Below are positions 7,117 through 52,372 of a stretch of 64,000 nucleotides of DNA, piece by piece (positions within the stretch are counted from its first letter, which is position 1; each line of letters begins with the position of its first letter). The DNA comes from Ascidia mentula (taxonomy: Eukaryota; Chordata; Ascidiacea; Phlebobranchia; Ascidiidae): positions 14,815,001-14,879,000 of the forward strand of contig OX387197.1 in assembly GCA_947561715.1 (NCBI GenBank), written 5' to 3'. Below the pieces are notes generated by a model. It saw only the letters and a program-made list of their open reading frames with translations. It had not been told where the DNA came from and made no database searches. Position numbers and translations under genes: made by a program.

Positions 7117-7240
7117 ACTAGGCACTTGTTTGTTTGATCGAGGCAAATATTTATGAAGCAAAAATTTAGCAAAATGATGAGAAAGCAACTTTATAAAAAG
7201 ATTTTGGTAATACACTTCTATTTCCAGATTCTTTTCTCTG

Positions 7241-7871: not shown

Positions 7872-7879
7872 TTTTATTG

Positions 7880-8890
7880 CTTCCTGATATACTTACACAC
7901 ATCGTCGTCAGTTACTATTTGCATTGGGCTTTAAATTACTTTGTTGACCATCTCAAACTGACTGAGAATAAAGTAGGTGACAACTGTGAGCGGGAACACG
8001 ACGGACGGAAATTTGCACGTTCATCGAACCGTGACGCATCTGCGCCAAGACAATTATTATCTAGGGCGAGTGCAGTCCAGTATTAAGTTTTGTTGCCACC
8101 ATCAACAAAAGCGCGCCAAACAGCTGTACATCACTTCTGTAGTAGACTTACTCAAAATAGTTATATATCCGAATCTCGTCTCGTCAGTAAAAAACAAAAA
8201 GATGGAAAATTGGGAACTTCTCCCTGGCAACATATTAACGGTGCTTTTATTGAATGAAAGCGAAATCGATAAAGCAAGCAAACACAACGCAAACATGTAT
8301 TCATACCCGATGAACTGTAGGCGGAAGTTGGGTCATTTGCCCTACGAAAAAAGGAAAAGAAATAGTTGGAAAGTGGATCTCTGATTACTCTTTTACGGCA
8401 GATAAAACACATCTGTTGACAGACTGCACATTTGTACCTCAAAGGTATCAGTAACGTGAAAGAAGCCCCAAGAAAAAAATTCTACTTCCCCTTACGAAAC
8501 AAGGCTTCAAAAAAATTTCGTAATTGTTAAAAACTTATAAATGCAATTAGTAGTCATACACCCTGTAGAATTCGAGCACTTCCTCAATTCCACCTTACAG
8601 TCCTCCAACTGGTAGTAGCCTATAAGGTCGGTCCAGTTTGATATGCACGTTTATTCCGACAGTTTCGAAATCAATTTCTAAGTTGTGATTTCAAAAAAAA
8701 TTTTCTGACCACACCTATTCAAAAAGAATATTATAGGCACATACAGACTCGAAAGAATTATTTCGTGCTGGGGAGAGTATTGTCCGTAACATACCGGCCC
8801 AAAATACCGAACGTGGGAACGAAGTTATTTCACACAACAATGGACAATAACGAAACACAGGTATATACACAATTATCAAGCGGCCTCGAG
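7880..8890. other. Unassigned stretch
   Basis: Short overlapping ORFs on both strands, none recognised. GC content rises toward the right edge, where the helicase-like reading frame begins. No terminal repeats or duplications were noticed. Confidence 0.5.
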
Positions 8891-17052: not shown

Positions 17053-20000
17053 CTAGTTGTCGGAGCCTGTCGAATGCACTTGGGAACCGCTAGCCTCGAA
17101 AACAAGGCACAACTTTGCAATTGGCCTTTTGATTATGTTTGATTTCGTTTTGACGTCGACTTGTCTGACAACTCCATGTTTGTCCGGATAGGTATTTATA
17201 ACTCGACCAAGGTCCCAGCCTCGACGGGGCATAGATTCGTTAACAACGAGAACAATATCGCCGACTTCGATATTTTTTCTTCTGTCTGGCCACTTTTGCC
17301 GCAAAGCGATGGTTGGCAAGTACTCATTGGTCCATCGTCTCCAAAATTCGTCAGCTAAGAACTGCACTTGGCGCCAGCGACGGCGGGTGTAGTTGTCCTT
17401 TTCGTCAAATTGCCCAGGTGCCATAATAGGGCTTGGCTTCTGTAACAGAATGTGATTGGGTGTCAAAGGAACGTCGTTGCTTGGACTAAACGTGACGGGC
17501 GTCAACGGTCTGGAGTTGAGTATATTTTCAACTTCCACCATCAACGTACGTAGGGTATCTTCACTAATAATCGGGGACTTGTGTAGCATCGAGTTCAGGA
17601 TTTTTCGTATGGAACGGATTAATCTCTCCCATATGCCGCCCATGTGACTTGCTGCTGGGGGATTAAACGCCCATTTTATTCCTTTCTGTTGAAGATGAGC
17701 TTCCAGCTTCTCCTTGTTCAGCTCCTCCAGGGCTTCGCGTAAAACACGCTCTGCTCCCACAAAATTCGTTCCATTGTCGCTATAAATTTCAACTGGCTTT
17801 CCTCTTCGGGCAATAAATCTTCTCAAGGCGTTTATGAACGAGTCGGTTGACAAATCTTCGGCAACTTCGATATGCACGGCACGCATCGTCATGCAGGTAA
17901 AAATGCAGCCATATCTCTTTACTTCGCTACGGCCGCGCTTCACTAAAAACGGACCGAAAAAATCGATTCCGGTGTACGAGAATGGTGGCTCGTTCGGCTT
18001 CAAGCGTGCTGGTGGTAGATCTGCCATCAGTTGCTGACTGCGAGGCACGTTGCGTTTGCGGCAAGGTATACAGTGAACGAGAGCACGACGGACAGCTGCA
18101 CCACCCTTGACAATCCAGTACTTCTGGCGGATCGCCGTCCATGTATGTGCAGTCCCTGAATGACCGCCTTGCTCGTGGTAATGCGTAATAATTAGCTTTG
18201 TCAAATGGTGATTACTTGGTAAGATGATGGGATGTCTGGATTCAAAAGGAATGGGTGCGTTGTCCAATCTTCCTCCAAGTCGAAGGACACCGCTTATCAG
18301 TTGCGGGTTTAACTTGTTTAAGCACTTCGTTTGGTTAGACTTCTTCAACCAGCGACGACCCTTTTGATCTGTGCCTAAATTCGACAGAGCTTCAAATGCA
18401 ATTGGAAACGCTGACCTTTGGACATACTTCACCAATTCCAGCTCTGCCTGTAAAATCTCTTCAACAGTCAGTTTTCCCTTCTGAACAGTTTTCTTCGAAT
18501 GCAGGTAGAGTTTGTACCGCAATATCCAGGCTACTGCCTTCTTCAACTTAAACAATGACGAAAACCTGTTTATTAAAAGTGTCAACAGGATTGATTGTAG
18601 AACAGCAAGTTGCCATTGACTTTTTTACTTCAATTGGCTTAAATTCGTCTGGTACACATTCCTTAAGGGCAGGGTTACATGGCCAAGAACTTTCATGCTT
18701 CTGTAAAAATCTCGGACCCTTGAGCCATAAACTTGATCCAAGCAGCTTCTTCACTGAAATTCCTCGTGATGCTTCATCAGCCGGATTCTGCTTGGTTCCT
18801 ACATGCCTCCATTGGGATGTGGTAGTTTGCTGATGTATTTTTGATAAACGATTTGCCACAAATGTGGAAAAACGCTTTCTCTCATTTGAAATGCTAAAAA
18901 GAACAGCACTTGAGTCAGTCCAAGTGTTCATGTAACCACTTGTCAGCTTTAACAGCAAGAACAGCTGCAACAAGTTCCAATCTGGGAATGCTTTCACTTT
19001 TTGGTGGAGTGACCTTAGATTTTCCACACAGAAAAGAACAATATACACAATGATTCTCATCCTCTTGTCGAAGGTAAGTAACAAATCCATAACCATTTAC
19101 AGATGCATCACAGAAATGGTGGATTTGGCGTTCAATCACTCTTCCAAAATCTGGTGGGTTCAAACATCTTGGCAATAAAAGCTGCTTAAGTTCAGGCAGC
19201 TGACCACACCATTTTTTCCACTTTTCGGACAGGAATTCTGGGATTGTGTCATCCCAGCCCAACTTCAACTGAATAACTTCTTGCTGGATTCTTTTTGCAA
19301 CTAAAACAACAGGTGCTGCAAAACCAAGAGGATCATATAGGGAATTAATGACCGACAATAGTCTTCTTCTGGTAAGTCTTTGTTCGTCAATATAGCTTCT
19401 TGTTCGAAACCCAAACTTGTCCTCAAATACATTCCAATACACGCCCAGCACTCTTTCCTTGACACTTTCTTTCGGGCTGATATCTTTCATTGATTTTGCT
19501 ATTTCAGTTTCAGGGATCCGGTCCAAAACTGCTTGGCTGTTTGAAATCCACTTTGTGAGACGAAAACCTCCCCTTTGTAGCAATTTACAAAGTTGGAAAA
19601 CAGTCTTAATTGCTTCCTCTTCAGTAGGTGCAGATGCTAAACAATCATCTACATAAAAATTGTGCTTCACTATTTCAGACACATGTTTGTCAAACTCATG
19701 TCCAAATTCCTCAGTGGTGTGCTTCAAACAGAATGTAGCCATACATGGGGATGAGGTGGCTCCAAATATGTGGACTAACATTCGGTGAACTGTTGGCTTC
19801 TTTGTGAGATCACCTTCAGGCCACCATAAAAACCTCAGTAAATTTGAATCACTCTTCTTTACTCTAACTTGGTGGAACATAGCTTCCACATCACCAACAA
19901 TTGCAATTTGATTCTTTCGGAAGCGGGTTAGCACACTGACCAGACTGTTAACAAGGTCAGGACCCTGCATGAGACTATCGTTTAAGGACACACCTTTTTG

Positions 20001-22916
20001 TGTTGCAGCGCAATCAAAGACGACTCTGACTTTGTCTGGTTTATGTGGGTGATAAACTGGATGGTGAGGAAGGTACCACGTGGGGTCACTTGTTTGTAGT
20101 TCTTCAGTTGGCACCTGTTCAGCATATCCTTTGTCTATGTACTCTTGAATTCTTTCCACATATCCTTTGCAAAGGAAGTCATCCTTTTGCAAGCGCTTTT
20201 GCAAATACAGCAATCTTTTTTGCGCTGAAACTAAATTGTCTCCAGGTAATTTTACGCTATTCCTCTTGGGTAAAGGTAGGACAAAATGTCCATCCACATG
20301 TTTAACTTCTTCCTTCATAAACTTTAAAACCTTTCTGTCTTCCTTAGATGTGGGGAATTGCAAATCTCCAGGTTCTTCACAAAAATCTTGGTACCATGAC
20401 CTTTGTATTCTTTGATCCAGTTCCAATGTTCTGATTCGATTGGCTTGCACATACCATTTATCTGGTGATGGACCAATCAACGACCACCCCAGTGGAGTTC
20501 TTGCAGCAAATGGCTCATTTTTCCCTCCAGTTCGAATCTCCAGGGTGCGATGAGCATACGGTGTATCGGTACCAATTAACAGCATAATTTCCTCACTGTC
20601 AACCTTTGGCATCTCAAGACCTTTTAGATGAGGCAAGCTTTGTAGATCCTCGTCAGTTGGGTAGGAGTATGGACTTACTGGAATATGATCCACGGACATG
20701 GCTTCTTCAATGTTGATGACTTCATTACCATCCATGGATACCACTTGTAAATCAACACCAATTCCTTCTAGCATCTTTGGCCTCCGCCCAAGTGTATCCA
20801 TTTGAATGCGTTTGAACTTTCCCTTTAAACCAAGTTTTTCGATTAGCTTTGTATGACAAAACGTAGCATCGGACCCAATGTCAAGAAAGGCATAGGACTC
20901 GAATTCTCTGCCATTGGCAACAAACTTTACAGGTAGGACACTCATATATGCACTCCTTCCATTCTTTGATGTGTTGCAACAAACCTTCCCTGTACAAGGC
21001 ACATCACTTACAGATGAACTTATATTTCTTGCATCAGGATTTCTTATAGCTGATGCACTTCTTGTGGGCAAATGCAATAATGCATGGTGCTTTCTTCCAC
21101 AACCTTCTACAGAACAAGTAACAGCTTCTTTGCACTGCTTTGCAATGTGACCAGGATTTAGGCAATTGAAACATAAATACTTCTCACGAAACCAGTTGGC
21201 TCTTTCTGAAACAGATTTTTTCTTCAAACTAGGGCAGTCAACGAAGGAGTGACTTTGGCTGCAGAACAAGCACTTCGAAACTGATTTTGTAAACCTGGTC
21301 TGTGTGGGCGCTCTATTCGCCTTGGTTACAACTGTGTGAACAGAACTCTTCTTGGGTGGCTTGTCCTGGGGCTTCCTTTCTTCTCTTTTGCGAGGTACCA
21401 GCAGTTTTGCAAAAACAGTGTTGGCAACCTCTGCTTCTTCTTCAACAAACTCCACTAAATGCTGGAAATTTGCTTCTTCACCCTTTTCTCGGAGAATAGT
21501 AGCCGCACGACGTTTCCACAAATTCTGTGAGTTGTATGGTAACTTCAATACCAACTCAACCAACCTGTCAGTGGTGTTCAGATCACTAAAATTTCCCAAG
21601 CCTTTCAAAATCAAAAGACATTTGCGCAGTGAAGTAGCAAACTGCTGCAAACCATCAGAATCATCTGGTTTGAGATTTGGACCACTTGTAAGTTGGCGAA
21701 CAAAGGCTCTTGACACTATGTATGGTTTTCCGAAATTGTCATATAGAATGCTTTGAGCTTGAGCATATCCCAATTCAGGTGGCATAACTGTACAATGCTC
21801 AATTAATGAGTAAGCTTTTCCTTTGCAATAATTCATTAGATAGTTCATCTTTACTCGATCAGAAGGTGCCTTCTTTTCAATAGTGGCTTCGAAACTTCTG
21901 ATAAATGGCCAATAATCCATTGGTTCTCCATGAAATTTCAGTGAATCTGTTTTTGGTGTAGACATTGCATCACCAACTGCAGCCATTATTCCACGCACAA
22001 CAGCACTTTCAGGTTGTACAGTTTCTGCTTTAGATGGGTTTGCTGGGTCAGCTTTGTCCAGCGGAGAGGTGTACTTGGACTTGCAGGGCTTCAACAATAG
22101 AACTTCATTTTCTTCAGCAAGACCATTATGAAAAAGTTTTGGAATATCGGTTTCATTTGATCTCATTTTCCCATCATCTAGAGACACATTAGAAGCTGCC
22201 TCCCAAATTTTAACTTCTGCTTCAGCTTCTTCAATTTCACACTGTGCTGCTAGTGTTTGCCTTTGAGCTTCAAGTTTTTGTTTTTCATGTTCAAGTTGTT
22301 GTTTTTCATGTTCAATTTGTTGTGTTTTCTCAACATGCCGTGATCTCACTTGAGCCTTTTCAAGACGAACCTTTGCTTCCAACCGCTTTACACTGGATGA
22401 TGTACTTCCCTGTGTCTTTGTAGAGCTTCTTGAAAAATGGGTAGACTTGGAAGAGCTCGTCCTCGCACTTCGGGCCTGTTGCACAGCCGGAAAAGTACGA
22501 ACAGCAACTGGAGATGTAACGAATGACGAAGAACTAACATCAATGTTCTCTCCAACCTGAATTTTGAAATTCGTTTGAAACTGACCAATTCTTGCTTCCA
22601 TTTCCTTCTTACATTGAATGACTTCCTGTAACTGTAGTTGAAAGTCATCATGCCTTTCACCTGATGGCACCCACTCTAAAAGCTTAGAGTATGTGTTTAT
22701 CAAGCGAGTTGAAACTTCTTCAATACGTTTTGAAACAGAATTAACCAATGAAATATCTTTGTACATGATTGCATTTTCAGCAGTCTTATACCAGTCATTC
22801 AGTAATTCTTTGTCATGCTTCAGTTGGATCATTGAAGGTGCTGCATGTTTTTTCAGCACTACTTGGTGCCTAGATATTGGTGATGAAAAGGATTGACCTC
22901 CTTCACTTCCAGGCAT
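17053..22916 (-). CDS. BEL/Pao gag-pol coding region
   Basis: Protein order from 22.9 kb leftward. A coiled-coil Gag N-terminus rich in Glu, Gln and Lys (22.2-22.4 kb) is followed by a DUF1759-like region near 21.8 kb. A zinc knuckle CFNCLNPGHIAKQC lies near 21.15 kb with a second Cys/His cluster ending HHALLHL. The aspartic protease motif FLDIGSDATFCH sits near 20.85 kb, and the reverse transcriptase catalytic box NFYVDDCLA near 19.65 kb. RNase H with NPADEASRG lies near 18.75 kb. The integrase spans about 17.2-18.3 kb with an HHCC-type zinc region, the core motifs GIDFFGPF and YSDNGTNFVG, and HMGGIWERLIRSIR. The products would copy and integrate the element. It is nearly intact, with about one or two interruptions, and is the best-preserved retroelement in the window. 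Confidence 0.9.
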
Positions 22917-25020: not shown

Positions 25021-25800
25021 ACTTCAGAAACTTAAGTGCCAGAAGAACGATTTTCATTAATTAGTATGCCTGGCAGCAAAAACATCAGTATATTCCTTTT
25101 TTTGTTCAACCAGATTTTAAGAGTATTAGGGTTGAGGTAACAGGCAGGCGTCAACGCGGCCGAATATGCTTTGAACAAGTCGAAAAGAGCTGTACGACTC
25201 AACTCTCTTGGCGTTTGACTATAACTGTATGTTCATTTCTATTTAGGAAAAAAAAACAGGATGTGGAAATTTTTGTTATGTCGTTAAATGTGCTTGTTTG
25301 GTTGAGCTGGCAAATCAGTAAATCCCGAAAACGCAAATTAGTCATTCAATCACTCAAAGCAAAGTTGTTCGCTCATTTCACTCGCAGATTTTTTCGCTGA
25401 GTTTTTTTAGTGTGCACATGACCTTCTGCATGCTTATCCATTTGGCAGTTGGAGAAACGGATGATGCTTTTCTTAGGCGAATTACCATCTGAGCTGTCTA
25501 CAGATCGCTTCGCTTATCTTAACATAAACAAATGCGATTGCTTTGCAATTTTCTTCAACCTGTTTATAATGGATTTTGGTGTTATTGCAACTAAAAAATT
25601 GCGAGAAGTCCGTTAGATAACTAAAGCATGATGCCTGCTTTCTTTAAGGGGAAGATACTAAACATGAATGGGGATTTTTCCAGTTCCCACGAACATCAAT
25701 GAGACTTATTTACGCCCAATCGTCGATAGTATAACGTTAATCTTAACAGTCATGATAACAGGGAGATCCATGCTCAGCACTTTCACATAAAATATTCTTA
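25021..25800. other. Unassigned interval with an inverted copy of the micro-exon gene's first exon
   Basis: No recognised frame. At about 25658-25731 the plus strand reads aacatgaatggg...ttttccagttcccacga, then acttatttacgcccaatcg. This matches, in the opposite orientation, the block at about 32180-32280 inside the first exon of the micro-exon gene. The match is about 75 bp with small gaps. It may be a local inverted duplication or the remnant of terminal repeats that once enclosed the locus. Confidence 0.55.
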
Positions 25801-26255
25801 ATTTTTAGTCTCATCAAAGAAGTACACTATTTCTGAAAACAAAGCAATGCAAACTTACCACAGCATCATTTCCCTCATTCCTCTGCGAAATAAAAAAGGG
25901 AGCATGTTATATATCTGATTACTCATACCAATAAACTAATTTAAACAATGTCTAAGAAGTACACTTCTTTTAACAACAAAAACAATGTATACTTACCACA
26001 GCATCATTTCCCGCATTCCTCTGCGAAATAAAAAAGTAAGTATGTAATATATCCCATTACTCATACCAATAAAGTAACTTGTACTGAACAAAGAAGTACA
26101 CTACTTTTAAAAACAAAACAAACTTACCACAGCATCATTTCCCACATTCATCTGCGAAATAAAAAAGGAGCATGTTATATATCCCATTACTCATACCAAT
26201 AAAGTAACTTAAACAAAGTCTACTTGCCACTGAACAAGTACACTACTTTTAAAAA
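25800..26255 (-). repeat. Micro-exon tandem array, 3' part (three units)
   Basis: Units of about 130-138 bp, each holding one 24-nt exon with its acceptor (tttcgcag on the minus strand) and donor (gtaagttt), then gtatgagtaatgggatatat and aaaagtagtgtacttctttg strings. Exons at 25859-25882, 25997-26020 and 26128-26151. The array breaks at 26255, where the Penelope-like insertion begins. Confidence 0.85.
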
Positions 26256-29200
26256 TGTGCATCTATCACATCATATTTGAGAACAATTCCCAGTATTATA
26301 GTACTATTGTTAACAAGCAATTGCTTTGTCCCTACAACAACCGGTTACCATTCATCATTTATGCGGACTGACAAGCGCCTCGTCTACGTCATCAAGACGT
26401 TCGACAACAATCTTGTCATCACCTTTTCCAACGTCATACGTCAACACCAATGTCATTTCTTTCTTTTACCTGAGCTCTCTCTGGCTATATATATTACGTG
26501 CATATTCATCATGAAAAGGGATGAACGAGAGAACCAGAGAGATAGGGGGGAAGACAAGCCTAACCAAGCCAAGACTGAACTAAGAGACGATAAGACCATA
26601 AGTCAAAAAGTAGATCAAAAAACAATTGTGTTGATTGTCGCCAAGCTATACGAGCTTTATTGTTTAAGAACCGATTGATGCGTGGTTTGTAAGTTGTTGA
26701 TGGTTTTTGTTTAAGTTTTAACGAATTAAATTGAAGGATCAATCTTAAAGGTCTACAGTCTTTGTTTGAACAGTAACCAGGAGTCAGATATACGGCAGAA
26801 TTGATTCTGGGAATCATTTCCCATTCTGTTGCAATTTGGCCCTGAAGATTTCCACCTTATTATATATGACAACTGTCTAGGAAACTTTCGTTTCAGGTTA
26901 AAATCTTTCAGTCTTCTTTAATTAGACAAATATATTTCGCTTCGTTAAAAGCATCATCAGTGTCTATAAAAGCAAATTAAGAATTAGGTTCAAATAAAAT
27001 AAAGTAAAGGCTCTCCACTACCTCACAACACACCCTTTACACAACTAAAAACCTGCCACATGCAACGGGTGGAAGCGTTGAGAAACCACGGATAAGATAA
27101 GGACACAAGAAAGAAGTAAAATAAAAACACGGGAAAGATAAAGAAACAGTATCTGCTTAAAGCAATGTAAACAAAAAACATCATTTGCACCGCAGTAAAA
27201 TCATTTTTTGTATATTAATTTTAGCGTTTATTTTATTTAACCATTTATCTTCAGCCATGTCCAAATTTGCGGTGCGTGGTTGTTCAACGAAAGTGACTTC
27301 GTAACATTGTTCAATGGGTGGACGTTGAGAAAACGAGCGTGGATGGCAATCTTTAAAATAATGCAAAAGCCCTGTTCCATCGTTGCGCTGTGAAACGTCG
27401 AACTTGGACCATGTGGCACGGTGACCCGACCAACGAGTGGCAAAGCTGTTTTTTGTCCCACGTATTGTTCCTTACATATGTTGCAAGTAGCAACGTATAT
27501 ACCAAAACTTTTGCATGTTAAGTTTTGAATAATCTTAACTGTGCCAGTTGGAGTTTGTAAACATGTTGATGGTTTAACCATGTTTGTTCTATGTCGACCG
27601 TGGTTGCCACATAAGGCACAATGCCCGCAGGGATATGATCCTGTTGCAGAGCTATCTGCACATTTTCCAATGGCAATTTGCCTAGGGCGTATCAGAAGGT
27701 TTTGGAGAGATGGTGGTCTCTTGTATGTCACCATACAGTTTGGTTTAAGTTTTTTTTTTTTTCTGAAAGTTGTAGTAGCGCTGGAAACTGCGAGGCCCAA
27801 GTGATTTTCTTAATATCTTGCATTGACGGCTTGTCTCAGTTGTTGTTCTGCTCCTTCCAAGTTCTCGCTTCTCTAATGATATCAGCAGTCACTCGTTTGG
27901 GAAACTGCGAGCGCTTTGCCTATGCCTCTAGTCCGTCAATGCTGTTTTTATAATCGATTTGTAGCTGATTGAGGTATCTCAATCTCATTGCTTCAGAGAG
28001 CACAATGGACTTGAAAGTGGCAGGTGGGTGGTGTGATGTTCCATTGAGGTACAATCGATTAAAGCTAGTTGGCTTAGGGTGGAATGCAGAAACCCCGCTT
28101 AACTCCTTCTCAGCTAAGCTCGGCTTAAGTTGAGATTTTGTATCGATTGTCCGATTTTACCGCTGTTTCACGGTGGTTCCTCGCATTACTGCGTTCTGCG
28201 AGCGTAACACGATGACGTATGTGGTGTGAAATGTTGTTGTTGTTCGTTGTTTTGTGACAAATAGTGACCCGGTAATTGGGAAATGCAGCACTTGGAATGT
28301 GGGAACTGTATTAAAGAGGGAGTTCATGAGAAGTGCAAGTATACAAAATGGTGGTGACAGCATATTTCTGTTAAGATTTGCAAAGTGAATTGTAGTTTTG
28401 TATGGTTTGTTGACAGTAAATGGTAAAAAGTATTTTAAATTGAATTGTATTTTCTTGCAAGATATTTTACTGTCTGTTATTTTCTTTTTAACAGCTATCC
28501 AGAAGTCAAGTGAAACATGCATTGGTTCCTTTATTTGTGTAATATTATGCTCACTGTCTTTCCCATTACCACAAAGATTTCTGTTTGATTTGTGTGTGCA
28601 GCCATCATTTGTTTTTGAATGCCAAATTTCTTTCCGCAAGTCTACGTAGTTTCATATTTGTTTCTTTCTATGCAATAAAACATTGGTATTTCATTTTGTC
28701 AATCACAAAAACTGTCCTATCCTGCAGTTAAACCAAAACTTCAAGTTTCAAGGAACCAGTCCTTGAATTTAAAGCAATAAATATACAATCAAGATTATTC
28801 TGTGTTAGTACAAGAAATATGTAACAGATATCACTAGTAACACAACTGGAAATGGAATGTTTATGATAGATGCACTTTGTCTACAGCTTGTCACTGCATC
28901 AGTTCCAAAGCACTTCATGATCCTTGGGATTGTGACTTGGACTTCATGCCACTTTTTGATATGGCAGCTTATACTGAACAGTCATATTCTTAACAAATCA
29001 ATTTATGTACAAAATTATCAAATATATGCATTAAACCTGTTGAAAAATATAACAAAATGAGATATTACTTATCCATGGTGCAAAAAAAAGCATGCTTGTT
29101 AGAAGTCTTTTCCAGCCTATTTTTACTCCCATAGCAAAAGTTGGCTCACCAAAGTTTGAAAAACCAACAATAAAGTACATTTTCAAGGCAACTTACCACT

Positions 29201-32200
29201 GTTATTCACATTACTACATTTTCTGCAGCACAAACGTTCCACAAACCAATAAAAATTAGCACTTTACACCATCTCCAGTGCGAATATTTGCAATTATTGC
29301 TGGTTTTACAAGTAGTTTACTTCACCCGGACTCGAGGACCTGGCAGCGCAGTTTCGCCGTTAAGCGGGGTTTTAAGCGTCCGACAATCACCGCTTATCTT
29401 ATGACGTCTTAGGCCGGGTCCGCCCGTGCGCTCACGCGCTGGCGCATTGGCTTCCACACAGAGAGAGAAACTTTGGGCTGGCGAGCTCGCGCGCTGATTG
29501 CTTTATAGTTTTGCCAATGCAGATAAAAATGATATCATCAATAAATCTCTTGAAAATTTCGGCCTGACATAACACATGTGCCACTCCGGAAACAACATGA
29601 TGCATTGCTATATTTGCAATAGCAACTGAGTGGTTGTCACCAGTTGCTATACCATTGGTTATTTCAGAAAACCTTTCCTTGAACTGGGTGACAACATTTC
29701 CAACCGTGAAAATCGTGAGTTGGATAATGATACGCTTTACTTTTGGTGAATATCGTTTTCTCAACATCCACCCATTGAACAATGTTACGAAGTCACTTTC
29801 GTTGAACAACCACGCACCGCAAATTTGGACATGGCTGAAGATAATGGTTAAATAAAATAAACGCTAAAATTAATATACAAAAAATGATTTTACCGCGGTG
29901 CAAATGATGTTTTTTGTTTACATTGCTTTAAGCAGATACTGTTTCTTTATCTTTCCCGTGTTTTTATTTTACTTTTTTCCTGTGTTATTATCTTATCCGT
30001 TCTCAACGCTTCCACCCGTTGCATGTGGCAGGTTTTTAGTTGTGTAAAGGGTGTGTTGTGAGGTAGTGGAGAGCCTTTACTTTATTTTATTTGAACCTAA
30101 TTCTTAATTTGCTTTTATAGACACTGATGATGCTTTTAACGAAGCGAAATATATGTCTAATTAAAGAAGACTGAAAGATTTTAACCTGAAACGAAAGTTT
30201 CCTAGACAGTTGCTACTTTTAAAAACAAACCAATGCAAACTTACCACAGCATCATTTCCCTCATTCATCTGTGAAATAAAAATGGAGCATGTTATATATC
30301 CCATTACTCATACTAATAAACTAATGTTTATGTCTACTTGCCACTGAACAACGAACTACACTACTTTTGAAAACAAACCAATGCAAACTTACCACAGCAT
30401 CATTTCCCTAATTCATCTGTGAAATAAAAATGGAGCATGTTGTATATCCCATTACTCATACTAATAAACTAATTTGTATGTCTACTTGCCACTGAACAAA
30501 GAACTACACTACTTTTGAAAACAAAACAATGCAAACTTACCACGGCATCATTTCCCTCATTCCTCTGCGAAATAAAAAAGGAGCATGTTATGTATAATCC
30601 ATTACTCATACCAACAAAGTAACTTAAACAACGTCTACTTGGTACTAAACAAAGAAGTACACTACTTTTAAAAATGATCGAATGCATACTTACCACAACA
30701 TTATTTCCCTCATTCCTCTGTGAAATAAAACAGGGAGCATGTTATATATCCCATTACTTATGCTAATAAACTAATTTAAACAACGTCTACTTGCCACTAA
30801 ACAAAAAAGTACAATACTTTCAATAATAAGACAAGGGAGCATGTTATATATACAATTACTCATTACCAAATGCACTTGTAACATACATATTGTAGTTTCA
30901 AACACCTGTTTAGTTTGTTTCTTAACATATTATTGTGCGTTTGCGTGTTTAGCATAATTTTATGATGTTACAACATCCAGGTATAACTAAGAATTTTAAT
31001 GCCTATTTAAAAATGCTTTTTTGTGTTTAAGGTGTTGCTAATCTTACATTGGTCCCAAAAAATATTTCTGCAGGTACCCATCTGAAAAAAAAATAAAGTC
31101 TTGTCATAATTTGTAAATGTATCATACAGTTCTACACTTACTGGGCAGTCTTTGGTATTTTGTTTTGTCTGAAACCAAAGAAAGCAGTTAAAATTTGACA
31201 AATTGACACTGGCAAATACAACCAATTTAAAATGGTACTTTTTGTTGTGGTATTTAAGTGAGCTAAGTTATGATAAAGAAGTGTTGATTGTTTATTCATA
31301 AAATGCAATTGGGGCCTTTGAACCTAATTGCAAGCAACACTAAGTTAAGCATAACAAATATGAAAAGAAATTTTACTCATGTAGTTTTCTGAATCTTCTA
31401 GATGGAAGAGATCAAAAGTTAACACAGTGGATTACATCGAGGGAATATCATTACCTCCTTCGTTTGGTTCTTGGATTCTGCTAAAAAAAAGTCAAACACA
31501 TTTTTCTCATACGCACTATTTGTATAAAACATATACGTACTTACCCGTTCATTGGCATTTTTTTGCCCAGCATTAAATACCACAGTATTGATTGAAGAAT
31601 TAATAAACTTTACGTCCATTTTTTTCTGCAAAAATAGAAAAAAAATTTCTGGCAACGATTTATGTCAAATACAAATGCGTATATGGTAGAAATTGTTTTA
31701 TAGCTGAGAAAAAATAAGGACTAAGATTTCTAACAAGATTACAAGACAAATTGCACTCGCAACTCGCAAGCTTCAACGTTCCTTGTTCACGTGATTGCTT
31801 TCCCGCGGTTCGCTTCATGACGTAACAATGTGAATTATTAGTCATCACATAAGCATGCGTTCCATGGAGTCGGTTTGTATTGTAGTTGCTGCAATGGAGC
31901 TGCTTTCTCAGGCGAATGTTTCGAGAATATTTTAAGGCTATTTTAGCACATATTGGATAGGCCTAGGTGGCACATGTTGTGGTTAGTTTGTGAGTCTAAA
32001 TAATTAGAATATTTGATGTTAAAGTTATAACAACAAAGTTGTTTCCCAACATAATGTACAATATTTGATATTAAAGTGACAACAAAAATGTTTACCTTCA
32101 TCCAGTAAGTAGAATCTGACGTGGCGCAGGTGACTTCACGTTCACATAATAACTGATGTGAGATAATCGTTATCATTCGCAGACGATTGGGCGTAAATAA

Positions 32201-32329
32201 GTCTGTTGATAATCTCATTGATGCTCGTGGGAACTGGAAAATTCCCCCCAAAAAATTCCCATTCATGTTTGAAAAAAACTTTGGGCCCCGGTGTAGTAGT
32301 AACTTCCTCCTTAAGGTGGCTGTGCACAT
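25827..32329 (-). CDS. Host-like micro-exon gene with a tandemly duplicated 24-nt exon
   Basis: Exons inferred from splice signals, 5' to 3': 32329-32096 (ATG start, ends TYWMK), 31625-31545 (81 nt, KKMDVKFINSSI...), 31477-31455 (23 nt, or 26 with an alternative acceptor; NPRTKRR), 31168-31142 (27 nt), 31081-31048 (34 nt), then 24-nt exons at 30717-30694, 30564-30541, 30416-30393, 30268-30245, 26151-26128, 26020-25997 and 25882-25859. A possible last exon at 25832 reads AAA TAG. Each has an AG acceptor after a T-rich tract and a gtaag-type donor. The phases chain without conflict (0,0,2,2,0, then 0 throughout). The repeated exon encodes RNEGNDAV or variants (MNEGNDAV, MNVGNDAV, RNAGNDAV, RNEGNNVV). 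The copy at 30416-30393 has TAG as its third codon, so it must be skipped or ends the protein. No known domain or signal peptide was recognised. A Penelope-like element sits in one intron of the array. Confidence 0.6.
26870..27325. repeat. Left arm of the Penelope-like inverted repeat
   Basis: About 456 bp starting caactgtctaggaaac, mirrored at 29745-30212. Near-identical over long blocks (for example gaaactttcgtttcaggtta), with a few small length differences. It includes the last codons of the endonuclease reading frame and the 3' untranslated part. Confidence 0.85.
27237..28095 (-). pseudogene. Penelope-like C-terminal region with GIY-YIG endonuclease
   Basis: Read leftward on the minus strand: a post-reverse-transcriptase block (HPKPTSFNRLYLNGTSHHP) near 28.05 kb, a linker with CGHCALCGN near 27.6 kb, then FGIYVATCNICKEQYVGQ near 27.47 kb. 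That last motif is the GIY and YVG core with the C-x2-C insertion typical of Penelope-like elements. The endonuclease nicks target DNA to prime reverse transcription. The end of the frame (LNVHPLNNVTKSLSLNNHAP) lies in the inverted arm and is seen again at 29.76 kb on the plus strand. Not intact. Confidence 0.8.
28090..29373. mobile_element. Possible non-autonomous DNA element inside the Penelope-like copy
   Basis: The interval separates two parts of the Penelope-like coding sequence. It is bounded by aaaccccgcttaac at 28090 and its reverse complement gttaagcggggttt at 29360-29373. No target duplication could be confirmed, so the ends are approximate; GC-rich sequence at 29375-29460 may also belong to it. 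A 160-codon minus-strand ORF at 28157-28639 is unrecognised. The rest, 28640-29340, holds nothing identifiable. Confidence 0.45.
29432..29750 (-). pseudogene. Penelope-like reverse transcriptase fragment
   Basis: On the minus strand the segment shows FKERFSEITNGIATGDNHSV and AIANIAMHHVV, the conserved block before the catalytic box, then FKRFIDDIIFI, the FxDD form of the catalytic aspartate pair in Penelope-like elements. It reads toward the endonuclease part at 28.1 kb across the 28090-29373 insert. Upstream fingers and palm regions are missing; the adjacent right-hand sequence is the inverted arm. Confidence 0.75.
29745..30212. repeat. Right arm of the Penelope-like inverted repeat
   Basis: About 468 bp in inverted orientation to 26870-27325. 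Its plus strand again encodes LNIHPLNNVTKSLSLNN. It abuts the micro-exon array directly at 30213. Confidence 0.85.
30213..30860 (-). repeat. Micro-exon tandem array, 5' part (four units and a partial)
   Basis: Exons at 30245-30268, 30393-30416, 30541-30564 and 30694-30717, spacing 148-153 bp. The rightmost partial unit (about 30817-30860, gggagcatgttatatat) lacks an exon. Acceptors alternate between tttcgcag and tttcacag. Units on this side share features among themselves (gtatgagtaatgggatat, aatggagcat) more than with the left block, so the array grew by local duplication. Confidence 0.85.
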
Positions 32330-39253: not shown

Positions 39254-40136
39254 CTGCACTTCTCACTTATGCCTTTTCTGCACTGAAGGAGAGGTGTGAC
39301 GATATTATCACTGATATATTTACGAGTGACTTCTACAACGCCTGGCAAACTGTATTTGCAGCCCACAAAAAGAGGCTTTATTGAAACTGGCATGTTGATA
39401 AATGCTGGAGGAAAAACATTGCTAGGTGCGTTTCGGATCCAGACGTACAGGCAACATTATATGCATACCTCAAAACACTGCAGTATTAAACAAACGAGCA
39501 GAAATTCCGCAAAAATGTTGCAAGAAGTACAAACCATACTTGCTGACACTTCCCCAGAATTTCAAGAATACTTTCTAAAGAACTATGTGCTGGAAGACGG
39601 CCTCTTGTTTCCGGATTGGATCCATTACCAACACCAAGATGTACGTGACGCTTTTGAAGTTTGCCAGAGACTTGTGTTTTTGGAACAAAGTGTTTGGAAC
39701 AATTCATTAAAATGCAAAATAGAAAGTGTACTCACCGCATTGCTGAAATACGAAAACGACTCAAGCTCGCAAGCAGTGTCGGAAGTGAGCACTGTAGCTG
39801 ACAACGAATGGAAAGTTGGTAACAACGCCGACCACGAATATACTGTGAGACAAATACAACCACAGTGTTTGAAAAATTGCCAAGTTAAATGCAATATATG
39901 TGTCCATATGCACACATGTACATGTCCCGACTTCTTGGTACATGCTGTGGCATGTAAACATATTCATGCTGTGAAAATGTCTGACACAGTAAGACAAGAT
40001 TTCGTTTTTGAGCAAAGTTCTGCAAGGTATTTTAGAAACCACTGTCGGCACCAAAAAACTATCAACTGATGTTAAGTCTCACTTTCAAAACGATCTCAAT
40101 TCGCTAAGTGACTTGGTAACATCAATAGATTTTCAG

Positions 40137-41159
40137 GTATCTTACAACTGGCGATTCTTATTTCCAAATAGGATGCTCATACAGAATGAGCAAACAAATA
40201 GTGCACAAAATTATAATTGAAACATGTGAAGCCATATGGATGTGTTTCATGAAAAATATATGCCCTTTCCTGACAAAAAAGCATGGAAAAAGATTGCAAA
40301 TGATTTTGAAAGCACTTGGAACTTCCCACATTGCCTTGGTGCAATAGATGGTATGGTGTCTTTTTTATTATGCTATTTTGGAGGAAGTGAAATTGACATG
40401 TAAAAATACTATTTCAGGTAAACATTGTACCATTCAATCTCCTGCCAAGTCCGGATCTTATTTCTTTAACTACAAAAAAAAATTTAGTATTGTGCTCCTG
40501 GCAGCTGTTAATGCCAATCACAACTTCATAATGATAGATGTTGGAAGTTATGGCCGCGAAGGGGATTCTTTGTTTGGTAAAGCTGTTTTAGATGGATATT
40601 TGGATCTTCCTGAGCCCAAGACACTACCAGGTACCACTTCTCCTGATATGCCGTTTGTGTTCGTGGGAGATGCTGCATTTGGTTTACATCCAAATTTGAT
40701 GCGACCATATGGAGGTGCAAATCAAACGAGGGAGAACAAAATATATGATTTCAGGTGAGATTAATAAACTATTTTCAGCTTTGCCATACAAATAACTTTA
40801 TGTGTGATAGGCACTCGCGAGCCCGAGTTGAAAACGCATTTGGAATATTGGTTCAAAGGTTTCTAGTGTTGCGAGCACCAATCCGGATGGCCCCGAAGTA
40901 TGCGGATCACGTCATAAAGGCTATTTGCGTCCTGCACAACCTTTTGCGCATTGAAAAAGGTGTAGAATATGTCCATGCTGAAACTGACGACTATTCGTGG
41001 CGAAGTTTTGTCAGCAAAAACACTTTGTTGCCGGTTGCATCATTACGCGGCAGAAGTTCATCTGATGCACATAGTGTTCGTGACAACTTTCGCGACTATT
41101 TCAACAGTGAAGCTGGCAGCTTGCCGTGGCAAAATGACTACGTTTTTCGTGTCAACTAG
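40137..41159 (+). pseudogene. PIF/Harbinger transposase (HARBI1-like), nearly intact
   Basis: Three exons with GT-AG joints: 40137-40350, 40418-40754 and 40811-41159. The first gives YLTTGDSYFQIGCSYRMSKQ and WNFPHCLGAIDG. Across the intron follow GKHCTIQSPAKSGSYFFNYK, FSIVLLAAVNANHNFIMIDV and FVFVGDAAFGLHPNLMRPYG, then RHSRARVENAFGILVQRF. The catalytic triad is visible as the Asp of AIDG, the Asp of VGDAAF and the Glu of ENAFG. One frameshift near 40250 in the first exon separates HKIIIETCEAIW from FHEKYMPFPDKKAW. The first exon begins right after an acceptor (ttttcag at 40130-40136), so earlier exons should lie upstream, where the Mutator-like element now sits. The accessory gene lies convergently at 41950-43482. 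Confidence 0.85.
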
Positions 41160-46198: not shown

Positions 46199-46590
46199 CA
46201 ATGCCGACATCAATGTAATCCACCACATTTTCGATCAATGCCTTTAATGTGTAGCCTGTGTTTTATTTTATCATGAGGCGTTTGTTATTTTTTGGTTGTA
46301 GTTTCATTTAAACTGTGTACACAATTATAAATATACCAATACAATAAATAACATATTAAAGCATTGGAAGGCAAACTTGCGCGATGCAAAATAAGACGCA
46401 CTTTGCGCTCGCTGTTATGAATTTGTTCTTTCACTCGTAACAAAACGACACAAAAAAGCAGCCACAACCGACTATTCACAGCACTCGGAACACAAACCAC
46501 AGAAAGTCCTTTAAAGAGCATATGACACGGCCATGACAACTTTGCGTAAAACTAAAGGTACATCTATAACAAACATATATCCAAAGTTCA

Positions 46591-46800
46591 CAGGCTTCGC
46601 AGCTGGATCAGCCACTTTTCCCGACAAGTTGGTGCGAGATCTGAAAAATCAAGCTCAGTTGGTAGAGCGTTTAGCCTGGTTAGCCCAGGGTCGAGAGTTC
46701 AAGCCTCACCGGGAGGTTGATTTTTCAGATCTCGCACCGACTTGTCGGGAAAAGTGGCTGATCCAGCTTGGCTGCAATGCCTTGGCTGCGAAGCCTGTGG
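46591..46800. repeat. Palindrome with tRNA-like core
   Basis: The 51-bp arms at 46602-46652 and 46717-46767 pair with one mismatch. Outer pieces (caggcttcgca and tgcgaagcctg) extend the pairing after a 19-bp interruption on the right. The 64-bp centre resembles a tRNA body: A-box-like ctcagttggtagagc, an anticodon-type stem CCTGG..CCAGG with only five loop bases, and B-box-like gagttcaagcctc. There is no 7-bp acceptor stem, so it is not a functional tRNA gene. An ORF through it is accidental. Confidence 0.8.
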
Positions 46801-46854
46801 ACCTTATGATCAGAATATTAGAGCTGAGTAGTAGGAATGAGCCCAGTAGCATGG

Positions 46855-46950
46855 CCACTCTTCACTTATTAGGGATCGGGCACTCTTCACTTGATTTGAG
46901 ATCGGACACTCTTCACTTGGTCTGAGATCGCGCACTGTTCACTTATGTGG
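46855..46950. repeat. Four tandem 25-26 bp repeats
   Basis: cactcttcacttattaggga, cactcttcacttgatttgag, cactcttcacttggtctgag and cactgttcacttatgtgggc begin successive units, each of the first three ending in gatcg or a close variant. They lie just outside the Polinton-like gene block. Confidence 0.75.
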
Positions 46951-47134
46951 GCTTGGTCACATATTGTATGAAAAATAACTTAGAGTGGTTCATTTGTTGA
47001 ATGAGTTGGTCGAGTAAGGACGTAAACCCAAGTGAGAAGTTTTTTGAATGAGCTCTGGTCACTAGATGGTACAAAAGAGTTGTGGCTGTGAAGGCTTTCG
47101 GTTTGTTCACTAGCCTTCTGAGTTGAATAGAAAT

Positions 47135-47602
47135 ATGTCATTTCTTACTGGTCGTTCTCTCTTTGGACGAAGATATAGAAGTGATGCTCAATACTCTTTA
47201 ACCTCGGTCATATGCGCCCCGGGTGGATTGGTCGAGGGAACGAGGAATTATCCTTGTTTGGACCCTACAAATGTTAATATGGAAGAAGAGAGAAAACGTA
47301 TAGATTCGTTCAAATATGGATTTTGGCCTTATCATACCCGATCAACACCGGCGGATTTAGCCGAAGCTGGATTTTACTTTATTGGTATACACGATAAAGT
47401 GAAATGTTGGTATTGTGGATGTTGCCTCTTTAACTGGGAACTGAATGACGTTGCTTGGGAAGAACATGCCAAACATTCTCCTGGATGTGAGTTTCTTCTC
47501 AAAATCAAAGGTGGGCAATTCGTTGCCGGAATTAGTGGTAAGGAAAAGATGTGTGCGGTCCGAATCGGGAAGAAGCATGCCTTCGTGAAGAGAAGAGACT
47601 GA
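47135..47602 (+). CDS. BIR-domain (IAP-like) protein of the Polinton-like element
   Basis: The ATG at 47135 opens 155 codons. Residues of the BIR fold are seen in order: FKYGFWPYHTRSTPADLAEA, GFYFIGIHDKVKCWYCGCCL, then NWELNDVAWEEHAKHSPGCE, giving the zinc set C-x2-C...H-x6-C. BIR domains in IAP proteins bind and block caspases or IBM-bearing antagonists. Only one BIR is present and no RING follows, as in small viral and survivin-like proteins. It lies head-to-tail with the ATPase and so reads as an element gene. Large DNA viruses and some adintovirus-like elements carry anti-apoptotic genes, so capture from a host is likely. It looks whole. Confidence 0.75.
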   Translation: MSFLTGRSLFGRRYRSDAQYSLTSVICAPGGLVEGTRNYPCLDPTNVNMEEERKRIDSFKYGFWPYHTRSTPADLAEAGFYFIGIHDKVKCWYCGCCLFNWELNDVAWEEHAKHSPGCEFLLKIKGGQFVAGISGKEKMCAVRIGKKHAFVKRRD

Positions 47603-48130
47603 AACGTCTCATAAACGAGAAGTTAACTTTACCAAATCCCAAACGCATTGTATGGTGTTACGGCGAGTGGCAAGGGGCGTACGAAGGGATTAACGGTGTG
47701 GAATTTGTTCGGGGATTGGCAACTGATTTTGATTGATCAGAGAGAACACTTTTGATTATTGACAATCAGTGAATGCGACAACAGCGTGACCAATCTTTTC
47801 ACAAAAGGGAGCCACCACAAAAATATAAGTGTGATATACATTGTTCAGAATTTATTTCACAAAGGAAAGGAGCAACGCACTATCAGCTTGAACGCGCATT
47901 ACCTCGCTGTTTTTAAAAATCCAAGAGACGCATCTCAAATAACTCATCTTGCCAAGCAAGTTCAACCAGGGCGGACGCGTGCCGTTCAGGAATCATATAG
48001 TGACGCGACCTCTCGTCCACACGGTTATTTGCTTTTTGACTTCAAGCAGAGCACAGCAGAAAAATTTCGTTTAGGAACCAACATTTTTCGCGGTGAAACC
48101 CAGATTGTGTACGTACCAAAATCTCTGTAG
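47551..48130 (+). pseudogene. Polinton packaging ATPase (FtsK/HerA-type), partial
   Basis: Shows NPKRIVWCYGEWQGAYEGI at the left, then the conserved LFTKGSHHKNISVIYIVQNL, KNPRDASQITHLAKQV and PHGYLLFDFKQSTAEKFRLG of the Polinton ATPase C-terminal half. In related elements this motor pumps DNA into the capsid. The Walker A portion was not found. Overlaps the end of the BIR gene. Broken. Confidence 0.7.
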
Positions 48131-48132
48131 CA

Positions 48133-48473
48133 TGTCAAGGCGACTACATGACCAAGCTCCAGTTCTTACGAAACTCACTAAAGCCAAACCCAAGCTTGCT
48201 CGATCGATTATAATAGTCGCAGATCGTGAATTAATCCAGTGCATTTGCGAATGTGCATACAACGTTTTGAAAGGAAACGTAACATTGACACCCACGGAAC
48301 GAGTCAAAATTTGCAGATATAAAAACGGCATCCGTGAACTTGGAAAAAAGTTAACTCCTGCAAAAAGAAAACGTCAGACTATCCAACGTGGAGGATTTTT
48401 ATCAGCGTTGTTAGCTCCGTTGATTGGCAACATAATACCCGCCATCACTAGTTTTTTGTCTGGTGGGAGGTGA
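48133..48473 (+). CDS. Small basic Polinton protein with hydrophobic C-terminus
   Basis: Starts MSRRLHDQAPVLTKLTKAKP. The middle LIQCICECAYNVLKGNVTLT and the end RGGFLSALLAPLIGNIIPAI are typical of a short conserved Polinton/adintovirus gene placed between the ATPase and integrase. It is thought to be a virion core or membrane-active minor capsid protein, by analogy with adenovirus small core proteins. About 113 codons, basic first two thirds, one amphipathic or membrane helix. It looks whole. Confidence 0.6.
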
Positions 48474-48474
48474 A

Positions 48475-49141
48475 ATGGAAAGTGTTCAAAAATTCGCTTT
48501 GGTGGACCCTCGTATTTTGAAAAGTCTACAGGGAAACACACCTTCACAAACGACGCCTGTTGAAAACGCATTAACCACACTCAATCGGAAAATGAAGGAC
48601 ATCATAAACGAACCTGGGACGATGGAAAACAAAGTAGAACTTTACAACCAGGCACTTCAACGGTATCAATTTTATTTTTTTTGACACCCTTGTGAATAAA
48701 CCACTTAAGTTTACGGTTACCGAAGAAGCCCGAGGAAAAACTGTGGCTGGAGAAGTTGAGGAAACAAAGAAAAATGTCGAAAGTCGTGTAATTGATTCTA
48801 TGCCGAAGACGTTTAAATACAAAACGAAGCGAGTCATGGATATTATCAAGGAAAGTCCAGAAATTGATTTCAACTCGACAGGAGAGCTTTCGGTTAAAGG
48901 GGAAGTTGTTCAGGGAAGCAACATTGAGGATCTGATTCACAATGCTGTGCGACGCCGCGGATCGACGTCAACGACGCCTATTGGATGGACTGATTTCCAG
49001 TGGGCATTGGAAAAAGCAAATGCACCAAAGTCATTGCTTGGGTATACAAATACAAGACCCGCGCCAGGTCAGCGCCCAGTTGGATCTAAACCGCCACCGG
49101 TGCAGAATAGACGATTTGCAAAGCAATGGGTGAATCTGTAA
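48475..49141 (+). pseudogene. Conserved Polinton protein of unknown function
   Basis: The left part reads ESVQKFALVDPRILKSLQGN and MENKVELYNQALQRYQFY. The right part contains a Lys/Glu-rich helix, then RRRGSTSTTPIGWTDFQWAL and a Pro-rich tail ending RFAKQW. This pair of blocks is common next to Polinton integrases. No domain of known function. Not intact. Confidence 0.5.
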
Positions 49142-49990
49142 AGTTTTCCAAGGAATATTATTCCCCCTTGCAACCAGGAAGTCTCGGGGGCGTGAAGCGC
49201 CTCGCCCGTGCTTCAAAACGAAATAGAGTTGAAGTAAAAGATTGGCTGCGAAAGCAGGACACTTACACACTCCACAAACCTCTACGTCGAAATTTTAAAT
49301 GTCTTCGTGTGGTATTGATTTTCAGTGGCAGGCTGATTTGGTTGATTTGGTAAAACTAAGTCGTTACAACAATGGGTTCAAATACTTACTTACCGTTATG
49401 GATGTGTTTTCAAAGTATGCGTGGGTTGTCCCACAATAAAACAAAAAACGGGGCCAAGTCTTGTGCGAGCTTTCGAAAAAATCTTGCAAGATGGGGACCA
49501 CCAACCGCGGAAATTACAGACAGATCGTGGCAAAGAGATTGTGAATAAACTTTTTCAGAATTGGTTACAAAATCACGGTATTCATTTTTTTACGACGTAC
49601 AATGACGAAACAAAAGCCTCCATTGTTGAGCGATTTAATCGGACTTTGAAGGAGCGTTTATGGCGGTACTTCACGTATGCCCAGACATCGAAATATATTG
49701 ACGTGCTAGATGATGTAGTAGAAAGCTACAACAACAGCTATCACCGCAGCATTCGAACTACTCCCTCGCCGGTGAAACGAGATAATCAGGATACTGTCTG
49801 GGAAAATTTATACGGCGATATATCGCATCCACCTATGTCCTGGAAGTTTGCAGTGGGTTCCCCAGTTAGAATCGCAGTAACCCGTACAAAGTTTAAAAAA
49901 GGTTACTTACCAAACTGGACGGAAGAAGTGTTTTTTTGTAAAATCCCGGCGCCAAACCAATCCCCATACCTATTCTCTAGTCGATTATAA
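49126..49990 (+). pseudogene. Polinton integrase (retroviral-type, rve)
   Basis: The N-terminal zinc/HTH part includes KEYYSPLQPGSLGGVKRLAR and DTYTLHKPLRRNF. The catalytic core includes LTVMDVFSKYAWVV-like sequence near 49.4 kb, KLQTDRGKEIVNKLFQNWLQ, then ASIVERFNRTLKERLWRYFT with the catalytic Glu, and YNNSYHRSIRTTPSPV. It ends in a chromo/SH3-like tail. This enzyme inserts the element and normally makes 6-bp duplications. Broken, with a few interruptions. Confidence 0.8.
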
Positions 49991-50151
49991 TCGTGAACCG
50001 ATAGAAGGGTCGTTTTATGATGAGGAACTCCAAAGTGTGGAAAAGGACCTTTATAACATTGAGAAGATATTGAAAAAGCGAAAAAGGCGCGGGGTAGCGC
50101 AATGTCTTATAAAATGGGTCGACTACCCCGATAGTTTCAATTCGTGGCTCA

Positions 50152-50430
50152 ATGCCGAGGACGTCGTACATTACAGAGTATAGCGTGTCAATGACTTCAG
50201 GAGGAGATTGGGTGTGGTGTGGGCGAAGTTTGCCTCGTGAAGAAGTTGTGTTTTTTTGTCAAGTGTTTCTCATTTTTGTTGTAGTCATCACCAGTCTTGT
50301 GAATTTGACGTTGGGACACCCAAACCCGAATCTCTGGACAGCGTTACTGGCAAGTGGGGTTGGCTATCTGTTGCCAGCACCGAGTTTGAAAAACAAGAAT
50401 GTTTTACGTGACTCTTCCGAGCAACAGTAG
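50152..50430 (+). CDS. Small membrane protein of the Polinton
   Basis: About 90 residues: GDWVWCGRSLPREEVVFFCQ, then a strongly hydrophobic helix (VFLIFVVVITSLVNL) and LWTALLASGVGYLLPAPSLK. The W..C...P.EE...Q pattern plus a transmembrane segment and the GYLLPAP motif recur in Polinton gene sets just before the penton gene. Function unknown; one or two membrane passes. The likely first codon is the ATG at 50191. Confidence 0.55.
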   Translation: MPRTSYITEYSVSMTSGGDWVWCGRSLPREEVVFFCQVFLIFVVVITSLVNLTLGHPNPNLWTALLASGVGYLLPAPSLKNKNVLRDSSEQQ

Positions 50431-50749
50431 TTTGGAGTTTTACCCCGAAAATACAACGACGCAATTCAAAACTAAACTTCCCAAAAGCATTCACTTGGAT
50501 CAGGGAAAATGGGAGGTGGCGTTATGTGACATTCAATATCCCTACTCATGGAAAAATATTGGGTCAGAAGTGTGGTTTGGAATGGTTTGGATTGGCAATG
50601 CTCGTCAACTCCCACTTCACGTGCTTCGTGAAGAAAATCGTCATTACGATGAAGTCATCTATACTTACAACGCACTTCACGAGATGCAGAGAGCATGCCA
50701 TGTCGGACAACTTTATATGTGGAGGACTTGGATAACTGCACGCGCATGA
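50399..50749 (+). pseudogene. Penton-like minor capsid protein, N-terminal part
   Basis: Begins MFYVTLPSNSSLEFYPENTT and TQFKTKLPKSIHLDQGKWEV, ALCDIQYPYSW, a signature of the Polinton single-jelly-roll minor capsid (penton) protein. Only the first third is recognisable; the rest is absent and is followed by non-coding sequence. Broken. Confidence 0.65.
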
Positions 50750-52371: not shown

Positions 52372-52372
52372 A

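Follow-up and report, generated by a model that had tools for sequence, protein, structure and literature searches.

Mutator-like elements (MULEs) that carry two genes are already known, and so are micro-exon genes. Here we describe a predicted micro-exon gene that stands inside a MULE DNA transposon of the ascidian Ascidia mentula. The locus lies in a stretch of 64,000 nucleotides (assembly GCA_947561715.1, contig OX387197.1, positions 14,815,001 to 14,879,000, forward strand), which we call the window and whose positions are used below unless another locus is named. An initial annotation of this stretch had proposed a micro-exon gene with seven repeated 24-nt exons, and we found homologous predicted genes, convergent to a transposase and with exon arrays of their own, elsewhere in the genome. 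We consider it very likely that transposon, convergent gene and arrays make up the structure described here, and we think it probable that splicing carries the arrays into a protein; structure and splicing, taken together, still seem likely to us. A literature search found no description of a micro-exon gene inside a transposon.

The closest described systems each share part of this arrangement. MuDR of maize has two convergent genes, one for the transposase and a second of unknown function, and both are alternatively spliced according to the available part of the source (PMC3440606). The elements described here are likewise MULEs with a second gene convergent to the transposase, as seen for 10 of 28 genomic matches to one of its exons (E4, below). 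They differ in having an animal host and a tandem exon array, which that part of PMC3440606 does not describe for MuDR, and the likeness is one of position. In VANDAL elements, the regions targeted by the protein VANC are tandem repeats that diverge rapidly, contract and expand, as the excerpted account has it (PMC10398659). What both systems share is a MULE with an accessory gene and with tandem repeats of rapid divergence from family to family; whereas the VANDAL repeats are noncoding protein targets in that excerpt, the repeats here are predicted exons of the putative accessory gene. In the MULE-type elements Phantom and Rehavkus, a minisatellite is reported to follow the transposase or to precede the 3' terminal inverted repeat (TIR), and Rehavkus also has a PHD finger (PMC6446971, in part). 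Such tandem repeats are the point of likeness, and the accessible passages of PMC6446971 do not describe those minisatellites as exons.

The fourth comparison is with the micro-exon genes of flatworms. Under the rule of Olson et al., as given in an excerpt of PMC7653826, a micro-exon is shorter than 70 nt and divisible by three, and a micro-exon gene has at least seven exons, half of them micro, with a run of four. By that excerpted rule, the predicted exons of one homologous locus, L063, include 26 micro-exons among 29 with a run of 21, and those of the window 9 among 12 with a run of 7. The two kinds of gene share runs of exons that are divisible by three and could be skipped or included. 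Here, in contrast, the gene is inside a DNA transposon, the units are near-identical in tandem and the array introns measure about 60-125 nt. We found no homology between the two, and no leading secretion signal was apparent by eye in the three N-termini inspected (window, L063 and L056/L064), on which no predictor was run.

The transposon of the window

The gene lies on the minus strand of an element at 25650..32307, which we recognized as a MULE deletion derivative by its inverted ends, a flanking 9-bp duplication and its homology to a complete element, L022, that spans 2406 to 8346 of its own locus. The two ends of the window element form inverted repeats, both with one another and with the L022 ends: across 127 bp, the left TIR (32182..32307, minus strand) shows an 84% match to the right end of L022 in inverted orientation, and the right TIR (25650..25728, minus strand) has an internal gap relative to the left one. 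Read on the minus strand, the target-site duplication is CCTTAAGGA at 32308..32316 and CCTTAAAGA at 25641..25649, with 8 of 9 bases equal. L022 has an exact 9-bp duplication, AGTATGGGG, and carries the end motif at 25/25 on both sides. Target duplications of about 8-11 bp characterize the MULE superfamily, as do terminal inverted repeats, and both were found; the duplications and exact ends were checked in these two copies. Across the 195.8 Mb assembly, the end motif had 148 matches with at most three mismatches and none for the reversed control. Set against the few full copies, the 148 end motifs point to many short, internally deleted relatives.

Over 32310-30825, the window is 94% identical to L022 2403-3878, and in both copies the micro-exon gene sits between the TIRs. 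The window copy lacks the L022 segment from just past the array to 8056, and with it the 3' exons and the transposase. At the deletion junction (25763..25817, minus strand), the post-array stretch matches L022 8056-8110, beside the right end. The array thus abuts the right end of the element with no terminal exon, where L022 has about 4 kb. A further insertion of about 4 kb (26258..30212, limits approximate) splits the array between units 4 and 5. This is other repeated DNA and no part of the gene; it has inverted arms (I1-I4), and pieces of it match many genomic places. By eye, we take it to consist of Penelope-like pieces, with a GIY-YIG-like motif; a Pfam search of one frame from it returned no domain. 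We conclude from the ends and the homology that the locus is a defective member of one subfamily within a MULE transposon family of tunicates. The initial annotation had read a working gene here with its units in a single row; the repeated units stand, while the single row and the working gene, or host gene, give way to a deletion derivative within a transposon.

The complete copies identify the transposase. On the strand opposite to the micro-exon gene, L022 has a frame of 612 residues in which SWIM, Ulp1/C48 and PHD domains were recognized. In L063, and in that locus only, we found the MULE domain itself (6358-7107, minus strand; PF10551, E 1.7e-9, plus PF21056), in frames that stand upstream of the SWIM/Ulp1/C48/PHD frame. 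A Ciona protein of 1052 residues combines MULE, SWIM, C48 and PHD domains. We assigned the element to the MULEs because of the MULE domain in L063 and the same domain set in the Ciona relative; an earlier guess from SWIM plus Ulp1, the Zisupton superfamily, was dropped once the MULE domain was found. Used as a genome query, the L022 frame gave at least 83 matches from 72 scored candidates of 232, and 16 of these span residues 6-612 or more without a stop.

The predicted micro-exon gene of the window

The predicted gene, all on the minus strand, begins with five upstream exons. E1 (31545..31625) has 81 nt, of which 75 are coding from an ATG at 31619, ends in phase 0 and encodes MDVKFINSSINTVVFNAGQKNANER. 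E2 (31455..31480) has 26 nt, or 23 nt through the second of its tandem acceptors. E2b (31377..31397; 21 nt) has homologous 36-nt exons in L063 and L064. E3 (31142..31168; 27 nt) encodes QNKIPKTAQ, and E4 (31048..31081; 34 nt) encodes WVPAEIFFGTN. Joined from the ATG, the predicted translation is MDVKFINSSINTVVFNAGQKNANER-QNPRTKRR-RRFRKLHE-QNKIPKTAQ-WVPAEIFFGTN, and the frame meets the array in phase 0. The seven 24-nt units are RNEGNNVV (30694..30717), RNEGNDAV (30541..30564), MN*GNDAV with an in-frame TAG (30393..30416), MNEGNDAV (30245..30268), MNVGNDAV (26128..26151), RNAGNDAV (25997..26020) and RNEGNDAV (25859..25882). Each has a T-rich stretch and CAG before it and GTAAGT after it, and the units with their acceptors and donors were all confirmed where the initial annotation had placed them.

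That annotation had also started the gene at an ATG at 32329 in a 234-nt first exon. This ATG is outside the transposon, which ends at 32307, and the exon is largely terminal repeat. In L022, with its 94% identity to the window across 32310-30825, GG stands in place of the exon's GT donor. We rejected the model of a host gene with this first exon because the exon crosses the end of the transposon. The upstream exons of 81, 23 or 26, 27 and 34 nt proved to have compatible phases as proposed, and the 21-nt E2b had been overlooked. In the window, L021, L022 and L023, the E1 acceptor stands 6 nt ahead of the ATG, which suggests that the gene starts either with an untranslated first exon or by spliced-leader trans-splicing. 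The TAG unit had been read as a switch to a short isoform; decay is the simpler reading, because other copies have frame breaks too.

Homologous predicted genes and array subfamilies

Used as a genome query, part of the array led to relatives at other places. These elements carry a homologous predicted gene, convergent to the transposase, with a spliced N-terminus of the form NK[IM]PKT..W.P followed by a phase-0 micro-exon array, and for three subfamilies (window, L063 and L056/L064) we built gene models whose introns are of the GT-AG type. The L063 model is complete, with 254 residues in 29 exons, 21 of them in the array, and no internal stop. Its exons encode, in order, MEFNF..., KFATRK, FLEKEEFCRLQS, ENKIPKTS, WVPEEIFWKRH, 21 octapeptides, KDATRP, EDDQTT and KKTSINQI. 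L064/L056 is the most distant member and has the same exon order and phases as L063: MSFSN..., YLTQSEFRKLQD, MNKMPKTA, WAPPQYFQEN, unamplified exons of 27, 24, 24 and 24 nt, and eight array units (one of 23 nt). L038 has the 34-nt exon, an array of its own and EDDQTV. The idea that phase-compatible micro-exons would let octapeptides be gained or lost without a frame shift is supported by these genes, and the existence of homologs with arrays elsewhere in the genome strengthens the reading of the window as a micro-exon gene.

We ran Tandem Repeats Finder on 31 loci, comprising 30 transposase loci with 1.5-kb flanks plus L063 (L035 is part of L063). Splice-bounded units were found in 12 loci (11 distinct places), other tandem repeats in nine and none in ten. 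The arrays form six subfamilies. Exons have 24 nt in five of them, with differing octapeptides: SQAEKGAS/RQTEKGAS (unit 104-105 bp), RQVQKEDN (about 99 bp), DDSAPKKG (82 bp), IDKAKVPE/IIEDKAPK (about 101 bp) and the RNEGNDAV subfamily of the window (130-153 bp). The sixth, RSPSVR/SRSPSVR, has 18- or 21-nt exons in a 97-bp unit. When one unit per subfamily was shuffled 2000 times by dinucleotides, 9, 17, 16, 2, 6 and 2 of the shuffles contained an open, splice-bounded 24-nt exon (9 of 2000 for the window unit). A young group of the same transposon (L044, L045, L046, L049, L050 and L052) has other tandem repeats and no micro-exon array within 1.5 kb; the frames of L044, L045 and L049 are nearly identical.

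The association with the transposase was seen both locus by locus and genome-wide. By reading, the second gene is convergent with the transposase in L022, L063 and L056. A DNA pattern for the start of E4, designed on the window, L063, L056 and L038, matched the genome at 28 places, and its reversed control did so at 7. Ten of the 28 lie convergent to and at most 7 kb from a transposase frame, against a random mean of 0.04 and maximum of 2 in 2000 draws; three of the ten come from the design set, and 56 of the 83 transposase matches were used, later pieces of the same copies being omitted. E4 matches beside transposase frames recur on several chromosomes. A pattern for NK[IM]PKT is weak alone, with 31 matches against 20 for the reversed control; for 10 of the 31, a match to the E4 pattern follows on the same strand at a distance of 75-93 bases, as found by comparing the lists by hand. 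In Pfam, the first member of the micro-exon protein gave nothing above the curated cut-off, and the best E over three members was 0.008.

Array length varies between close relatives. L063 has 21 units, L037 has 3 with its whole array in view, and L036 has at least 7 in view; L035 (the L063 place), L036 and L037 have a synonymous divergence (dS) of about 0.01 in the transposase frame (0.011 between L063 and L037) and 99-100% identity in two further stretches. Two RSPSVR copies with transposase frames one base apart have about 18 units (C70 3128065-3129856) and about 21 units (C59 52219-54300), as estimated from their extents at 97 bp per unit. We conclude that the length of the predicted arrays is labile between near-identical copies.

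Selection and divergence

Among ten pairs of window-type copies, the ratio of nonsynonymous to synonymous divergence (dN/dS) over E1-E4 was 0.08-0.16 in eight. Four non-independent pairs showed an excess of synonymous change in these exons (p 4.9e-5, 7.8e-6, 4.7e-8 and 4.8e-5). On these counts, we conclude that the predicted N-terminal exons are under purifying selection. For the transposase frame, dN/dS was 0.18-0.28 in 5 distant pairs of 13; the other eight pairs are near-identical, and their values, from 0.09 to 1.12 or undefined, are uninformative. In 13 aligned window-type units the 24 exon columns were free of gaps and the 96 flanking columns had 34 runs of gaps; a single event counted in several rows accounts for many of these. 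The alignment used 13 of 16 units, with L021 7025, L024 5092 and L025 5019 dropped for changed acceptor surroundings. We conclude that array units keep length and frame, not octapeptide sequence.

The initial annotation had proposed comparing exon with intron divergence, with equal values to be taken as a refutation, and exons turned out to be as divergent as introns or more; exon identity not being above intron identity, conservation of exons over introns was dropped as evidence. The exon excess lies at synonymous sites and in the upstream exons, a location that does not fit unselected sequence. Between the window and L022, E1-E4 have 12 differences at 38 synonymous sites against 46 at 1294 noncoding sites (p 1.7e-8), in an exon sample of 183 nt and with 11 of the 46 noncoding differences clustered next to the array. 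For L022 compared with the C2 copy, dS was 0.82 in E1-E4 against 0.14-0.23 in the transposase. The silent sites of E1-E4 thus change faster than their own introns and the neighbouring transposase gene, with a divergence several times as high (L021-L024 comparisons). Such fast silent change could come from selection for a different mRNA sequence, or from exchange of exons between subfamilies.

Weighing the explanations

Our preferred explanation is that the array would be spliced into the mRNA, so that a hydrophilic, probably disordered tail would gain eight residues with every unit included. Arrays would lengthen or shorten by unequal exchange, and skipping or inclusion of units would yield further length variants. 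The product may be an accessory transposon protein, in a position like that of mudrB in maize MuDR or of VANC in plant VANDAL elements, and perhaps acts on the transposase complex or against host silencing; to this accessory role we give somewhat less than an even chance. A fast-changing tail might then set behaviour specific to a copy or family. An extension of this idea, which we regard as doubtful, is that the gene serves as a protein diversifier, in which the exon cassette amplifies locus by locus and variable inclusion gives repeat tails specific to copies and subfamilies. This could be part of a contest with host silencing or rival subfamilies, and the high synonymous divergence of the N-terminus would fit escape from silencing matched to the mRNA sequence.

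Several results weigh against our preferred explanation. E2 of L022 is one base longer, which shifts the frame, and L021 and L024 have a stop in the joined frame. Nineteen of the 31 loci are without such an array within their 1.5-kb flanks, which are short for judging absence. The RSPSVR unit failed the splice filter because its acceptor is weak and pyrimidine-poor, and other units are damaged: donors are weak in L038, L040 and L057, L057 also has stops, and one unit of L056 has 23 nt. The E3 pattern has no match beside the L040 and L041 frames, and exons upstream of the RSPSVR and DDSAPKKG arrays were not seen. No homologous protein appeared at E<=1 among 2628 candidates, nor did a word search find one that shared three words. 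The two closest pairs of copies have a dN/dS of 0.53 (window-L021) and 0.93 (L023-L024). Exon identity of the window to L021, L022, L023 and L024 is 0.97, 0.90, 0.85 and 0.83, no higher than the intron identity of 0.98, 0.98, 0.89 and 0.89, and the octapeptides vary most at codon position 2 (0.106 versus 0.048 and 0.058), with no purifying signal.

Some of these points would also fit a real gene whose micro-exons amplify neutrally, with unequal exchange expanding a unit like a minisatellite and repeat number having no role. Such expansion would be harmless because the unit is phase 0-0 and self-contained. Octapeptides that differ wholly from one subfamily to the next, with most of their variation at codon position 2, copy numbers that shift quickly and members with one or no repeated unit in view all favour it. 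We nevertheless think it rather unlikely: 24-nt phase-0 arrays occur in five subfamilies with different repeats, the 13 aligned units have no indel within the exon, and in L056 four unamplified exons (27, 24, 24 and 24 nt) precede the array, which makes the eight-residue module seem older than its amplification.

Two alternatives remain. The array could be a set of binding sites in DNA for a transposon protein, with incidental splice-like borders. The arrays do resemble VANC targets, which the excerpt of PMC10398659 describes as tandem repeats that rapidly diverge, contract and expand, and MULE relatives with a minisatellite after the transposase (Phantom of aphids, Rehavkus) are reported in the available part of PMC6446971. 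Between subfamilies, however, exon length, phase and splice borders are constant, whereas unit length (82-148 bp) and motif are not; the phase in which the upstream exons end is the one required by the array, and shuffling each unit 2000 times gave an open, splice-bounded 24-nt exon only 2-17 times. We therefore consider binding sites improbable. That a host micro-exon gene of the schistosome kind is merely flanked, or was recently captured, by transposons seems very improbable. The L063 model does qualify under the rule of Olson et al., to the extent that PMC7653826 is excerpted, but in the window and L022 the gene is between the TIRs, it recurs beside transposase frames on several chromosomes, and no host homolog was found at E<=1 in the 2628 candidates.

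Other observations in the elements and the window

A noncoding block of about 95 bp stands between the convergent genes (L022 4836-4936; L063 3662-3763; L041 1131-1224; L044 927-1021; others), with 27 invariant columns in 10 copies from different subfamilies. It is perhaps a shared end or an insulator. We rejected a structured RNA in this block: Rfam gave no match at E<=1 for four loci, the block folded no better than shuffles in four tries, and covariation was weak. Elsewhere in the window, frames at 46533-57339 resemble a Polinton/Maverick (integrase, ATPase, capsid and DNA polymerase B), with a BIR-like domain at 47123-47602, and long frames at 17053-22916 resemble a BEL/Pao retrotransposon, all by eye from translations. 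The stretch 39296-41159 has a weak match to SWIM and a fragment of DDE_Tnp_4 (Harbinger-type), which are, as far as seen, unrelated to the micro-exon gene.

Implications

The minisatellites of other animal MULEs may merit re-reading as exon arrays. If the arrays are spliced, near-identical elements would encode proteins that differ in the number of a short repeat, and a mobile element would be carrying an exon cassette, ready-made and self-amplifying, to new places in a chordate genome. The elements would then offer a natural experiment on the birth, spread and tolerance of exon arrays, and a possible source of host micro-exons. If the diversifier idea were also true, this would be the first known mobile element with its own coding capacity varied by the number of tandem exons.

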